Source of the DNA: Thiotrichales bacterium
Lineage (GTDB): Bacteria > Pseudomonadota > Gammaproteobacteria > Thiomicrospirales > Thiomicrospiraceae
Length of the DNA stretch: 48,700 nucleotides
Direction of reading: 5' to 3'
Assembly: GCA_022759035.1 (NCBI GenBank)
Contig: JAEMQD010000059.1
Span: 1-48,700 of the forward strand
The notes under the pieces: generated by a model
Seen by the model: only the letters and a program-made list of their open reading frames with translations
Told to the model about the DNA's origin: nothing
The model's database searches: none
Shown: one piece after another, positions 8,650-48,700 of the stretch
Layout: each line of letters starts with the position of its first letter
Numbering within the stretch: the first letter of the stretch is position 1
Program-made: the position numbers and the translations under genes

Positions 8650-9927
8650 GTGGGGTGTTGTTTGCGTATTAAGTTTATTCTGTGCTGTTTGTTCGGACTG
8701 CTGTGGTTGCCTAAAACTGTTTTTTCGGAAGACCTAACAGAACAGTCTGTGGTGGATTTGTTCTTGCAAAATAATTTACCTCTGTTGGCAGGTAAAATGC
8801 AAATTGCGCTTTCTCAGGCACAGGTATTAGTGGCTAAGCAATGGACCAATCCTTCACTTTCTTTGTCTGTATCAGGCTTGGGCGATACTAAAAGCTGGGA
8901 TGGTGGTAATAGCTATTGGGATCGACCTTACAATAATAATTTAAGCATTAGTCAGCTCATTGAAACTGCTGGCAAGCGCCAACTTCGTATTGAAGGTGCC
9001 GAAATAGGTGAACAAGCACAAAATTTATTGTTTGTTGATTTGTTGCGTTCGCTTAAGCGAGATTTGCTGACTGCTTATTATTTGGTGGTGATGAATCAGC
9101 AACGTGTAGCGATTTATGACGAAATATTGCAGCAATTAAATGAAGTATCATCTGCTAATTTTTTGCGATTTAAAGCAGGTGATATTTCTCAGACCGAGTT
9201 TAGCAGAATTGAACTTGCTGTTTTGAAAGCAAAAACAGATGTAGAACAAGCACACTTAGATTTAGATGTTTCTCGCCAACAACTTGCAGAAATTCTGGCC
9301 TATCGTTTGTCGCCAGATCACCTTAAGGTGCTAAGTAAATTTCCAAGTTATCATCTGCCACAAAGTCCTGCGCCAAAGTTAATCAGTAAAGCATTAGATG
9401 ATCGTCCAGACATTCAAGCAGCACGTTTAACCATTGAACAGCAACAGAAACAACTTGATTATGCTCAGGTGCAGAAAATTCCGGATGTTGTTGTCGGTGT
9501 TCAGTATGTGCATGACCCATCAGCAACCTTGCGAGATAGTGCAGGTGTTGGTATTGGTATGACCATTCCGTTGTGGCATCAATACCAAGGAGAGGTTGAG
9601 CAAGCACGTGTTAATAAGCGGTTAAGTGAAGTCGCTTTAAACCAGCTAGAACAACAAATTAAAACGCAGGTTAATCAGGCTTATAGTCAGTTTCAGCAAA
9701 AAGATAGAGTGCTAGCACGTTTTAATAAAGAAGTGATTGGCCGTGCAAAACAAGTTCGTGAATCTTCTGTGTTTGCCTATCAGCAAGGCGCTATTTCATT
9801 GTTAGAACTGCTCGACGCAGAGGGTAATTACCGTAATACGATGTTAGATTATACGCAGGCACTTTATGATCAAACAATCGCTAGACTTAACTTAAATTAC
9901 GCCATTGGCGAAGAAGGAAATAATTAA
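8650..9927 (+). CDS. TolC-family outer-membrane channel of a heavy-metal efflux system
   Basis: This 425-residue protein has an N-terminal signal peptide and two outer-membrane-efflux (OEP) repeats. Family features are the SLSVSGLGD-type strand segment, ISQLIETAGKRQLRIEGA after it, DDRPDIQAARLTIEQQQ at the start of the second repeat, and the GAISLLELLDAEGNYRNT helix near the end. It resembles CzcC/CusC-type channels that carry metal across the outer membrane in a tripartite RND pump. GTG 8650 and TTG 8662 are both possible starts; neither has a strong ribosome site. The adaptor gene begins 1 bp after its stop. Confidence 0.88.
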   Translation: MGCCLRIKFILCCLFGLLWLPKTVFSEDLTEQSVVDLFLQNNLPLLAGKMQIALSQAQVLVAKQWTNPSLSLSVSGLGDTKSWDGGNSYWDRPYNNNLSISQLIETAGKRQLRIEGAEIGEQAQNLLFVDLLRSLKRDLLTAYYLVVMNQQRVAIYDEILQQLNEVSSANFLRFKAGDISQTEFSRIELAVLKAKTDVEQAHLDLDVSRQQLAEILAYRLSPDHLKVLSKFPSYHLPQSPAPKLISKALDDRPDIQAARLTIEQQQKQLDYAQVQKIPDVVVGVQYVHDPSATLRDSAGVGIGMTIPLWHQYQGEVEQARVNKRLSEVALNQLEQQIKTQVNQAYSQFQQKDRVLARFNKEVIGRAKQVRESSVFAYQQGAISLLELLDAEGNYRNTMLDYTQALYDQTIARLNLNYAIGEEGNN

Positions 9928-26812: not shown

Positions 26813-26960
26813 GGGAACTTCTAAAAACCTCGCTTCGCTTGTTTTTAGACTTCCCAAGTTTGTTTTTAGCTGAAAGAAGGGGGTTTATCGCTGTGTTACA
26901 TGCTATTTTTAGCAACCCCTTCCTTCAGACTTCCTACCCATTGGGTTTTTATAGGTGCCC
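26813..26960 (-). repeat. MITE-like palindromic repeat, copy A
   Basis: This is a 148-bp element, inverted relative to copies B and C. The ends are inverted repeats (GGGAACTTCTAAAAACC at the left; the right end reads GGGCACCTATAAAAACCC on the other strand). It is flanked on both sides by AATA (26809-26812 and 26961-26964), as expected for a 4-bp target duplication. Inside are a long hairpin (CTGAAGGAAGGGGTT with its partner) and a second hairpin made from CTAAAAAC and GTTTTTAG. It has no coding capacity and lies between the divergent bcp and yciO-like genes. Confidence 0.85.
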
Positions 26961-27009
26961 AATAGGTAACAATATGTCAGTAATGCACGCATCACGTCAA
27001 GCTTCACGT

Positions 27010-45269: not shown

Positions 45270-45418
45270 GGATGCCTCTAAAAACCCAATGGGTAGGCGG
45301 TCTGGAGGAAGGGGTTGCTAGAAACAGCATGTAACCCATTGATTAAACCCCTTCCTCCAGCTAATAAATAAACTGGGAAAGTCTAAAAACAAGCAACGCG
45401 CAGTTTTTAGAGGTTCCC
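45270..45418 (+). repeat. MITE-like palindromic repeat, copy B
   Basis: This 149-bp element lies between hda and the TlpA-like gene. The ends are GGATGCCTCTAAAAACCC (left) and GGGAACCTCTAAAAACTG read from the right end on the other strand. TATT flanks both sides (45266-45269 and 45419-45422). The main hairpin is a perfect 15-bp stem: CTGGAGGAAGGGGTT (45302-45316) with AACCCCTTCCTCCAG (45346-45360). CTAAAAAC and GTTTTTAG form a second stem at the right. No open reading frame of note. Confidence 0.88.
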
Positions 45419-45477
45419 TATTGAATAACAGGATGCGCTTATTTCTTATAGAATAGGGCAAATTTTAAGGAGAAGTT

Positions 45478-45948
45478 ATGTTGTTGCGTTATGTTGTGGG
45501 GTTGTTCGCCTTGTGTGTTGCGCTGCCAGTAATGGCAATGGATGCCGAATTTGTCGATCTTTCAGGTAAAAAAGTAAAACTGTCAGATTATCGTGGTAAA
45601 TGGGTGGTGGTAAATTATTGGGCGACATGGTGTCCGCCTTGTGTTAAAGAAATTCCTGAACTCGCCACTTTTCACGAAGCGCACCGCAATAAAGATGCGG
45701 TTGTTTTGGGGGTTAATCATCAAGACAATGATCCTGACGAGGTGAAAAAATTTATGGATGGTTATTTAGCTACTTATCCTATTCTACGCACTGAAGGAAG
45801 CTTAAGTAATCGCACCCCATTCGGTACGTTAAAAGGATTGCCAACGACTTTTATGATTACACCAGACGGCGAGTTGATCGCGGCACGTACGGGCATTGTT
45901 GACCAAGCAACGCTCGAGAAGTTTATTAAAGACAATAGCCAAAAATAG
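45478..45948 (+). CDS. TlpA/ResA-like periplasmic thioredoxin
   Basis: This 156-residue protein has a signal peptide (residues 1-20, ending PVMAMDAE) and a thioredoxin-fold domain with a CPPC active site (Cys52, Cys55) in NYWATWCPPCVKEIPEL. The cis-Pro loop GLPTTFMITPDGE is present. TlpA/ResA proteins are membrane-anchored or periplasmic dithiol reductants, for example in cytochrome c maturation. Here it starts a gene group that continues with a second thioredoxin-fold protein, a TolC-type channel and an adaptor. The start has a strong AAGGAG ribosome site, which decides the ATG. Confidence 0.85.
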   Translation: MLLRYVVGLFALCVALPVMAMDAEFVDLSGKKVKLSDYRGKWVVVNYWATWCPPCVKEIPELATFHEAHRNKDAVVLGVNHQDNDPDEVKKFMDGYLATYPILRTEGSLSNRTPFGTLKGLPTTFMITPDGELIAARTGIVDQATLEKFIKDNSQK

Positions 45949-45992
45949 TAATACAATCCTGAGCGAACGTATTCAAAATAAGAGGAAATGAT

Positions 45993-46505
45993 ATGAAACG
46001 TCTCATTGCATTGTGCTTAACAACTTTTTTAGCAGTTTCTGTTGCTTATGCGGATAAATCAAAAGGCTTCTTTCAAGAAAGTTTTGGTAATTATCAAGAT
46101 GAATTGAAAACAGCGAAACAAGACGGAAAAGACGGTGTTTTTGTCTTCTTTATGATGGACGAATGCCCTTTTTGCGACAAAATGGAAAAGACAATTCTGT
46201 CACAACCAGATGTACAAGCCTATTTTAAACAGCATTTTTCAAACTTTATTTTTGATATTGAAGGTGATGTTGAAGTCACCGACTTTATGGGTAAAGTGAA
46301 AAAGCAAAAAGAGATTGCAGAAAAAGATTTTCGAGTACGGGCAACGCCTGTGATGATCTTTTTTGATTTAACAGGTAAGCCAGTAGCGCGTTATACAGGT
46401 GCAACACGTAATAAAGAAGAAATGTTATTACTTGGTAAATTTGTGGTTGAGAAACAATATGAAAAAATGACATTTGAGCAATACAAGCGTCAAGCTAAGG
46501 AGTAA
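45993..46505 (+). CDS. thioredoxin-fold periplasmic protein (SoxW-like)
   Basis: This 170-residue protein has a signal peptide (residues 1-20, VSVAYADK) and a thioredoxin-like domain with a CPFC active site (Cys58, Cys61) in FFMMDECPFCDKMEKTIL. VRATPVMIFFDLTGKPVARY carries the cis-Pro. The pattern (EEMLLLGKFV end) matches SoxW/DUF255-related thioredoxins. It is 44 bp after the TlpA-like gene and 5 bp before the TolC-type gene, so it is probably co-transcribed. It may keep Cys residues of an exported partner reduced; that is inference. Confidence 0.82.
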   Translation: MKRLIALCLTTFLAVSVAYADKSKGFFQESFGNYQDELKTAKQDGKDGVFVFFMMDECPFCDKMEKTILSQPDVQAYFKQHFSNFIFDIEGDVEVTDFMGKVKKQKEIAEKDFRVRATPVMIFFDLTGKPVARYTGATRNKEEMLLLGKFVVEKQYEKMTFEQYKRQAKE

Positions 46506-46510
46506 TCAAA

Positions 46511-47785
46511 ATGGCTAAGTCCGTTTTTTTTCCTGGGCTTCTATTTGCCTCATTTTTGTCTTTTTTTGCCCCTGTAGAAAGTGCTGAAGCACCGAAGCGC
46601 TTACCAGAGCCGCTGACACTGTCTGCGGCTTTAGCTATTGCTGCAGAGCAAGATCCTAATGTCATGTTGGCACAAGCACGCACAGCTTCAGCGCTTGCTG
46701 ATCAAGCAAGTGCGGATTCTGAAGATCGTTTTAAAATGCGTTTTGACGGTGGGTTAGTTCGTCGAGAGTTTAATGGTCGAGAAGAAGATTACAATAATGC
46801 CTACCTTACATTGCAGAAACAACTTTATGATTTTGATCGGACGCAGTTAGCGCAATCTGCATCAGAAACACAGGTATTGGCGAATCAAGCATTAGAAAAA
46901 TATGCCGTGCGCCAATACCGACAAGCGGTTATTGATGCTTTTTATGCTGTGTTACTCGCTGATGCTAACTATGCGGTTGAAAATGAGCAGCTGGCGATTG
47001 AATATGTCAATTTGGATAATGCGCGTGATGAAGCAGCCGTAGGCAAAGTTTCTGCATTAGATTTATTGGCATTAGAGGCACCTTATCAACGCACAGTTTT
47101 GCGTCGAACGATTGCCGAAAATAATCAGAGAAATACACGAGCCGCGCTTGCAGAGTTGTTGGGTTATCCTAATTTGCTACCCGAAACATTGGAAGCACCA
47201 GATAATGCATCGTTGAAAAAACGTAAGCTTGAAGAAATTAACCTGTTGCAAGAAAAAGCCTTGACCAACAACTTAGAGCTTAAAGCGGCGAATTTGCAGG
47301 TTCAGGCCGCTGAGTTAAAAGTGCAAGCGGCAGATAAGTTAAATATGCCACGTATTGATGCGATTGGTAGAGCGGGTTGGCATAACAATGTAGAAACTTT
47401 GTATGAAGGACGTTGGCGTGCTGATTTGGCGTTATCTATGCCTATTTTTGATGGTGGCTACAAAGATGCACAAGTAGATAAAGCTAAAGCGGAGCTTATT
47501 AAAGCAAGGGCGCAACGCTCGGCTTTAGAAAGACAAATTCGCCAGGCTGTGTTAGAAACCGCACTTCAAATTGAAACCCTGAAAACTCGGAGTACACAAG
47601 TAAAAGTAGCGGGCGATTATGCAGATAGTTACTTAGATAAAAGTCGTACTGAGTATCAGTTTGAACGAAAAACCGATTTAGGTGATTCTATGGTGCGCGC
47701 AACGAAGGTGGAATTTGAAGCGCTACAGTTAGAGCGTGATCGTATTCTGTTGTGGGAACAACTACATAAATTATTAGGGGAATAA
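46511..47785 (+). CDS. TolC-family outer-membrane channel protein
   Basis: This 424-residue protein has a signal peptide (residues about 1-25) and two OEP repeats. Features are LTLSAALAIAAEQDPNVMLAQA near the start, LQKQLYDFDRTQLAQSASE, GKVSALDLLALEAPYQRTVLR, and NNLELKAANLQVQAAELKVQ beginning repeat two. The C-terminal repeat ends DLGDSMVRATKVEFEALQLE. It differs from the metal-efflux channel at 8650 and belongs to the same broad family. It lies 1 bp before the mini-adaptor gene. Confidence 0.85.
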   Translation: MAKSVFFPGLLFASFLSFFAPVESAEAPKRLPEPLTLSAALAIAAEQDPNVMLAQARTASALADQASADSEDRFKMRFDGGLVRREFNGREEDYNNAYLTLQKQLYDFDRTQLAQSASETQVLANQALEKYAVRQYRQAVIDAFYAVLLADANYAVENEQLAIEYVNLDNARDEAAVGKVSALDLLALEAPYQRTVLRRTIAENNQRNTRAALAELLGYPNLLPETLEAPDNASLKKRKLEEINLLQEKALTNNLELKAANLQVQAAELKVQAADKLNMPRIDAIGRAGWHNNVETLYEGRWRADLALSMPIFDGGYKDAQVDKAKAELIKARAQRSALERQIRQAVLETALQIETLKTRSTQVKVAGDYADSYLDKSRTEYQFERKTDLGDSMVRATKVEFEALQLERDRILLWEQLHKLLGE

Positions 47786-47786
47786 T

Positions 47787-48287
47787 ATGCTTCGTATGCC
47801 AAATATTTTATTGACATTATTTATCTTATTGGTGGCGTCAACAAATAGCTTCGCGGCAACAATTGGTGCACTTGTTGATGGTCAGATTGTATTACTGCAA
47901 GTGAAAGAAGGTGACCAAGTTAAGAAAGGACAGCCTTTGCTTGAAATTGATAGCCGAGCGATTCGTGCGCATATTGCCCAGCTTAAGGCCAAGCTGCATT
48001 TTGCCGAACTCGAGTTGAAAGATGCTAAAACAGACTTTGATGCCGAAAAGGCGTTGTTTGATCAAACAACGACAGCAAAGCGTCGCTTTGATGCAGCGAT
48101 TTTAGTGAAAGACAGAGCGTCGGCGAAGGTAGATGTGTTACGTAATGAACTGAACGAGGCGCAAAGCAAATTAGATTATTATGTTATTGTTTCGCCTATT
48201 GATGGCGTCGTGCGCAAGCTTTGGGTTGCCTTGGGTGATACCGTTTTTCATGAAAATCAGAAAATGATCGAGCTTGAGGCGAAATGA
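47787..48287 (+). CDS. miniature HlyD-type periplasmic adaptor
   Basis: This 166-residue protein has a signal peptide and only two parts of a membrane-fusion protein: lipoyl halves (ATIGALVDGQIVLLQVKEGD at residues 24-43 and YYVIVSPIDGVVRKLWVALG near 130-150) and a helical hairpin (about 60-130, Lys/Ala/Glu-rich). The beta-barrel and membrane-proximal domains of normal adaptors are missing, although the sequence is intact at both ends. It follows the TolC-type gene by 1 bp and its stop overlaps the next ATG. No inner-membrane transporter lies between here and the window end, so the inner-membrane partner must be elsewhere. Confidence 0.75.
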   Translation: MLRMPNILLTLFILLVASTNSFAATIGALVDGQIVLLQVKEGDQVKKGQPLLEIDSRAIRAHIAQLKAKLHFAELELKDAKTDFDAEKALFDQTTTAKRRFDAAILVKDRASAKVDVLRNELNEAQSKLDYYVIVSPIDGVVRKLWVALGDTVFHENQKMIELEAK

Positions 48288-48580
48288 ACAATATGACTAA
48301 ATTGCGCGTAAAAATTGCCTTTATGCGCCAATATTGGCGATTGGCGATTCACTTAATCCTAAAAACAAAGCACTTTGGTGTCAATAATCAGTGGTGGTCA
48401 AGCCATCCATCTCCAGTAGGTTGGTCTTGTGGGCAGCGCCTGTGGGGTATCGTTACCTTATTGCCGATTTGGCGTAATTATCAGTCAATGATGGTGCGTA
48501 GTTGTTTGGGTTGGATTCCTGGCGATGATGCTGATGCGTTGGGTTTTAGTGAATCTATTTTAGGTAGAAAGCATGTCTAA
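48284..48580 (+). CDS. 98-residue Trp-rich protein, unknown
   Basis: This 98-residue protein is basic at the N-terminus (MTKLRVKIAFMRQYWRLAIHLI) and rich in Trp (seven residues), with two Cys in GWSCGQRL and VRSCLGW. No signal peptide or clear membrane helix is present. The start shares an ATGA with the mini-adaptor stop, which argues for a real co-translated gene. ATG 48293 is an alternative start. Repeat copy C begins 6 bp after the stop, so an insertion may have cut or replaced the original 3' end. I do not recognise it. Confidence 0.55.
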   Translation: MNNMTKLRVKIAFMRQYWRLAIHLILKTKHFGVNNQWWSSHPSPVGWSCGQRLWGIVTLLPIWRNYQSMMVRSCLGWIPGDDADALGFSESILGRKHV

Positions 48581-48586
48581 TCATTT

Positions 48587-48700
48587 GGGCATCTCTAAAA
48601 ACCCAATGGGTAGGAAGTCTGAAGGAAGGGGTTGCTAAAAATAGCATGTAACACAGTGATAAACCCCCTTCTTTCAGCTAAAAAATAAACTTGAGAAGTC
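48587..48700 (+). repeat. MITE-like palindromic repeat, copy C (cut by window end)
   Basis: This 114-bp part of the same repeat is in the orientation of copy B. The left end GGGCATCTCTAAAAACCC and the hairpin CTGAAGGAAGGGGTT (48619-48633) with AACCCCCTTCTTTCAG (48662-48677) are present. The flank to the left is ATTT. The right end and target duplication are outside the window. Confidence 0.85.

Follow-up and report, generated by a model that had tools for sequence, protein, structure and literature searches.

A TolC-family outer-membrane channel, two thioredoxins and a minimal periplasmic adaptor are encoded together in an ancient gene cluster, which is neither a chance neighbourhood nor a one-off, and which is almost confined to sulfur-oxidising Gammaproteobacteria. 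The parts are of known kinds; what is new is their combination and the repeated loss of adaptor domains. The cluster is tentatively read as a transporter-less conduit from the periplasm to the outside of the cell, with DsbD-fed thioredoxins, for sulfur or thiol handling. We give this reading a probability of roughly 0.35.

The window (48,700 nucleotides from a Thiotrichales bacterium) is one entire contig from a draft genome of 2.25 Mb. Five open reading frames at 45478-48580 all lie on the forward strand; 44, 5 and 1 bp separate the first four, and the final two overlap by 4 bp, which matches exactly the layout given by an earlier sequence-only reading. They encode two thioredoxin-like proteins (TrxA, 45478..45948; TrxB, 45993..46505), the channel (46511..47785), the adaptor (47787..48287) and a small Trp-rich protein, W98 (48284..48580). 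A sequence scan found signal-peptide-like N-termini, without a lipobox, on TrxA, TrxB, the channel and the adaptor. Copies of a dispersed, MITE-like repeat of about 145 bp lie on both sides of the five genes. The upstream copy (45275..45421) has terminal inverted repeats (CTCTAAAAAC...GTTTTTAGAG) and an internal hairpin; the downstream copy (48592..48700) is cut at the contig end, which it causes. A further copy is located at 26848-26962, and about 25 matches were found genome-wide. The window ORFs include no transporter ahead of the window end, as had been stated. Since the contig breaks inside the repeat, the absence of a downstream transporter could not be judged from the window, and relatives were used.

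The five genes had been proposed to form a unit, and the comparison with relatives agrees. The order TrxA-TrxB-TolC-mini-adaptor-W98 recurs in most genera of the window's family, most likely the Thiomicrospiraceae; the cluster usually follows an hda-like gene, has purM/purN/dcd nearby, and is often followed by a PilZ protein. Some family loci are incomplete: L032 and L036 run into a contig end, and in L038 and L048 overlapping ORFs hide genes in the ORF filter. Genus g6 carries the set in two parts, with TrxA and W98 at the hda locus (L041, L042, L044, L050) and TrxB-TolC-adaptor at L216-L218. The core order is also present in other families: among 31 loci with a strong TrxB relative sampled outside the family, from about 20 gammaproteobacterial families, 27 have the TrxB, TolC and adaptor genes in the same order and strand, and contig ends cut 2 of the remaining 4 loci. 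TrxA is kept in place in the window's family and in front of 18 of the 27 outside clusters. TrxB thus stays with the channel and the adaptor in all complete family arrangements and in most outside loci, a pattern that points to a functional link.

Recurrent neighbours outside the family are acylphosphatase, GspE/PilB-like ATPases, CutA and DsbD. The acylphosphatase-like gene is directly 3' of the adaptor gene in about 15 loci (L185, L186, L188, L189, L192, L195, L196 and L198, and further L200, L203, L204, L206-L208 and L215). The GspE/PilB-like ATPase is encoded downstream of the unit in L192, L197, L207 and L209, which represent several families, and an MshEN domain was found in the one that was scanned. 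In a locus of the window's own genus (L033), the next gene past the unit (9262-9612) encodes an ABM-domain protein and no transporter.

The link to sulfur oxidation was assessed in 369 genomes of the class, with the TrxB profile as a proxy for the cluster and an E-value below 1e-30 as the threshold for a strong relative. A strong match was found in 97 genomes; one TrxB match (L210) stands beside a YeeE-like gene and no channel. SoxB is present in 153/369 genomes, namely in 91/97 with a strong TrxB and in 62/272 without (Fisher p 6.5e-37), so that the proxy gene is missing from 62/153 SoxB genomes. The association was also found by family (50/51 TrxB families vs 30/130 others; Fisher p 2.5e-22), for which 181 families were taken as the class total and the independence of families is approximate. 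SoxB was found in all sampled genomes of the window's family, which indicates that its members are sulfur oxidisers. Among the SoxB genomes, neither DsrA (34/47 vs 21/33, p 0.47) nor SoxC (8/47 vs 8/33, p 0.57) tracked the unit. A tie to one particular downstream sulfur pathway was therefore rejected, and the unit is a feature of sulfur oxidisers in general.

TrxA (156 aa) is a TlpA/ResA-like periplasmic thiol-disulfide oxidoreductase. It matches AhpC-TSA/Redoxin in Pfam (6.7e-23), its best PDB matches are ResA (7.7e-20) and TlpA (8e-18), and it has both the WCPPC motif (WCxxC) and the N-terminal signal-like segment of this type; no cut-off of the NCBIfam subfamily models was reached. TrxB (170 aa) matches Thioredoxin_2 (4.9e-21), and its PDB relatives are DsbC-like proteins and thioredoxins. 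Its CPFC motif (CPxC type), which is SoxW/SoxS-like, is invariant in 16 relatives; together with the co-occurrence of SoxB it makes TrxB a candidate for a thioredoxin acting on Sox proteins. The proposal that periplasmic thiol reductants stand beside a channel was thus borne out, as two periplasmic-type thioredoxins adjoin the TolC gene. DsbD is the electron donor of periplasmic thioredoxins. It is encoded in the window's own genome, and it also adjoins the cluster in two families, directly downstream in L214 and after CutA in L213.

The channel protein (424 aa, no Cys) matches the OEP family (Pfam, 2.4e-32), of which the genome has eight frames, this one included; its match to TIGR01844 (1.1e-26) is below the model cut-off. 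The adaptor (166 aa, likewise no Cys) matches Biotin_lipoyl_2/HlyD_D23 in Pfam at about 1e-8. The AlphaFold model, computed from an alignment of relatives from the related-locus search, has a pLDDT of 86.8 and contains a complete barrel-sandwich (lipoyl) domain and two helices of about 35 residues, with no further domain. A Foldseek search with this model retrieved AcrA, MacA and MexA. The sequence-only reading had held that the lipoyl and hairpin parts are kept while the barrel and membrane-proximal domains are lacking, and the model confirms this; a lipid anchor is also absent according to the model and the sequence. Likewise, the match to the RND_mfp model TIGR01730 (91.9 bits; cut-off 94.9) covers only model positions 26-164 of 322. 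The adaptor is thus predicted to be a soluble periplasmic protein, with a signal peptide, composed of a lipoyl domain and an α-hairpin. A single scan of genome contigs with the adaptor as query revealed only ordinary full-length adaptors, and a plasmid search gave only matches below 60% identity.

The possibility that this adaptor is a truncated version of a longer gene had been named as a refutation. No gene is broken: the length is 164-185 aa in the 20 family members examined and the C-terminus is conserved, which rules out a truncation or pseudogene. In the evolutionary sense the suspicion was right, since the adaptors outside the window's family are usually 248-290 aa long, and the window's adaptor is a lineage-wide shortened form. 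The C-terminal part of the one longer adaptor scanned matches HlyD_3, consistent with a retained β-barrel; the adaptors of about 250 aa in other families appear to keep the barrel, and seem to lack the membrane-proximal domain. A second mini-adaptor lineage is represented by L211 (158 aa). In the FastTree phylogeny of TrxB and TolC, the window's family forms a single clade (support 1.0), and L211 groups with adaptors of 251-261 aa (0.80, 0.98). This placement makes at least two independent losses of the barrel probable. Most adaptors of other families carry R-L-S at the hairpin tip (R 22/28, L 25/28, S 23/28), whereas the window's family has Q/A-L-A there (R 0/20, S 1/20) and so departs from the TolC-docking R-L-S motif. 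Docking of the adaptor on the channel therefore remains a prediction in that family.

Of the components of tripartite pumps and type I systems, the TolC channel and the lipoyl-plus-hairpin adaptor were found in the cluster, and a clustered inner-membrane ABC, RND or MFS transporter was not. In 45 loci, a motif and transmembrane scan detected no ABC or RND genes at a distance of up to 5 kb from the channel gene. The closest transporter-like frames encode, in g2, a MacB-like ATPase on the other strand at 5.6 kb and, in L186, an RND-like protein at 6.7 kb; DsbD accounts for the polytopic frames that adjoin the unit in L213 and L214. A transporter hidden past the contig end was considered and rejected, as the same-genus and same-family loci could be read through and none was there. 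An adjacent transporter or peptidase, expected along with a conserved order, appeared in no relative. In genus g2 (L035, L037, L038, L043), a MacA-ATPase-permease cluster is located about 4-5.6 kb away on the opposite strand, and this might be a partner pump in that genus only.

W98 (98 aa) had no relative in Pfam, NCBIfam or the PDB, and no signal peptide or, by hydropathy, transmembrane segment was found. No fold was assigned, as the AlphaFold model made without an alignment (pLDDT 54) was uninformative. The W98 family is present in 60/63 genomes of the order; in the class sample, only two further families have relatives, one with the TolC and adaptor genes (L139) and one without (L138). In the distant L138 family, the W98 relative (9236-9478) is located beside TatD- and dGTPase-like genes, with no channel or adaptor. 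In genus g6, W98 stays with TrxA. W98 is thus separable from the TrxB-TolC-adaptor core, as g6 and L138 show. Its two Cys residues were confirmed, but apart from one distant relative only the window's own genus has Cys49, and at the position of Cys74 some relatives carry Arg while others lack the residue. The idea of a Cys-containing substrate kept reduced therefore fails for W98, and its role as an exported substrate was ruled out by the missing signal peptide and the non-conserved Cys. Judged from these features, W98 is a putative cytoplasm-type, loosely attached protein, a co-transcribed extra in the window's family and not part of the core.

Several explanations other than a pump-less conduit were weighed. 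The cluster might serve conventional tripartite export, with an unlinked RND or ABC pump and perhaps a second, full-length adaptor, while the thioredoxins independently keep the envelope reduced. The window's genome encodes other adaptors (about 350-430 aa) adjoining RND genes as well as eight OEP frames, g2 has its MacA/MacB-like cluster on the opposite strand at a distance of about 5.6 kb, and outer-membrane factors can serve several adaptors according to reviews (PMC4446572). However, no adjacent transporter was found in the 45 loci from about 20 families, and the adaptor has neither a lipid anchor nor the regions, barrel and membrane-proximal, through which adaptors touch pumps of the inner membrane; an unlinked pump is possible but somewhat unlikely. 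Export of a folded or Cys-containing protein that the thioredoxins hold in the reduced state, as the sequence-only reading suggested, would fit the reductants beside the channel. Type I systems use TolC channels, which also speaks for it. Such export is nevertheless highly improbable, because the neighbourhood holds no conserved candidate substrate and W98, with its variable Cys, lacks a signal peptide.

Another explanation is that TrxA and TrxB are SoxW/SoxS-type proteins which repair SoxYZ, and that the channel and adaptor provide a general route for detoxification (e.g. of copper or organics), neighbours by history. The TlpA/ResA and DsbC-like homology, the co-occurrence with SoxB and the CutA neighbour in L213 agree with such maintenance, and the thioredoxins are separable, as in g6 TrxA is at the hda locus and TrxB is with the channel and adaptor genes. 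Against mere hitchhiking, no complete family arrangement parts TrxB from the channel and adaptor genes, and 27/31 loci outside keep the three together; we regard this explanation as unlikely.

Comparison with known systems also showed some similarities. The cluster resembles AcrAB-TolC, MacAB-TolC and HlyBD-TolC in its TolC-family channel and lipoyl/hairpin adaptor; whereas it has thioredoxins, and lacks an inner-membrane transporter gene as well as the barrel and membrane-proximal domain of the adaptor. BesA, the atypical adaptor from Borrelia, also misses a standard domain; however, BesA has no hairpin and works with an RND partner (PMC3807786), and the window's adaptor keeps the hairpin and has lost the barrel. 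EmrA-type adaptors similarly have no membrane-proximal domain, but they possess a β-barrel, a long hairpin and an MFS partner (PMC4158417). The SoxS/SoxW/SoxV system of thiosulfate oxidisers (cited in PMC10451225) shares the sulfur-linked periplasmic thioredoxins and a CcdA/DsbD-type feed; unlike the cluster, it is described without a TolC channel or adaptor in the parts of the literature consulted. The claim that no described system has this exact set stood, since no similar gene set was found in the literature searched, which did not extend to subscription papers.

In the pump-less conduit, cytoplasmic electrons would pass via DsbD to TrxA and TrxB, which may reduce periplasmic disulfides, persulfides or polysulfides, e.g. 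on Sox carrier proteins. The adaptor would attach to the TolC-family channel through its hairpins and open it, and a sulfur or thiol species would pass from the periplasm to the outside along its gradient, with no inner-membrane pump powered by ATP or protons. Published work fits this general setting. SoxS is a periplasmic thiol-disulfide oxidoreductase that protects SoxYZ (PMC10451225), and in work cited there SoxV reduces the periplasmic thioredoxin SoxW. In Hydrogenovibrio, extracellular sulfur globules are excreted by a trafficking process that is unknown (PMC5733100). We infer the sulfur or thiol nature of the substrate only from the co-occurrence. A more specific form, which is quite improbable as it stands, is a pump-less exit for zero-valent sulfur or polysulfide, in which the DsbD-fed thioredoxins would mobilise periplasmic sulfane sulfur and the minimal adaptor would open its own TolC-type channel. 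If true, the exit of zero-valent sulfur would explain the deposition of sulfur outside the cell by Thiomicrospira-type bacteria.

In the textbook view, TolC channels form the outer part of pumps that the inner membrane drives. A long-conserved channel with a lipoyl/hairpin adaptor and no linked pump would show that TolC channels can serve the periplasm alone. The cluster also supplies candidate genes for the exit of zero-valent sulfur from the envelope of sulfur oxidisers, or for its mobilisation there.
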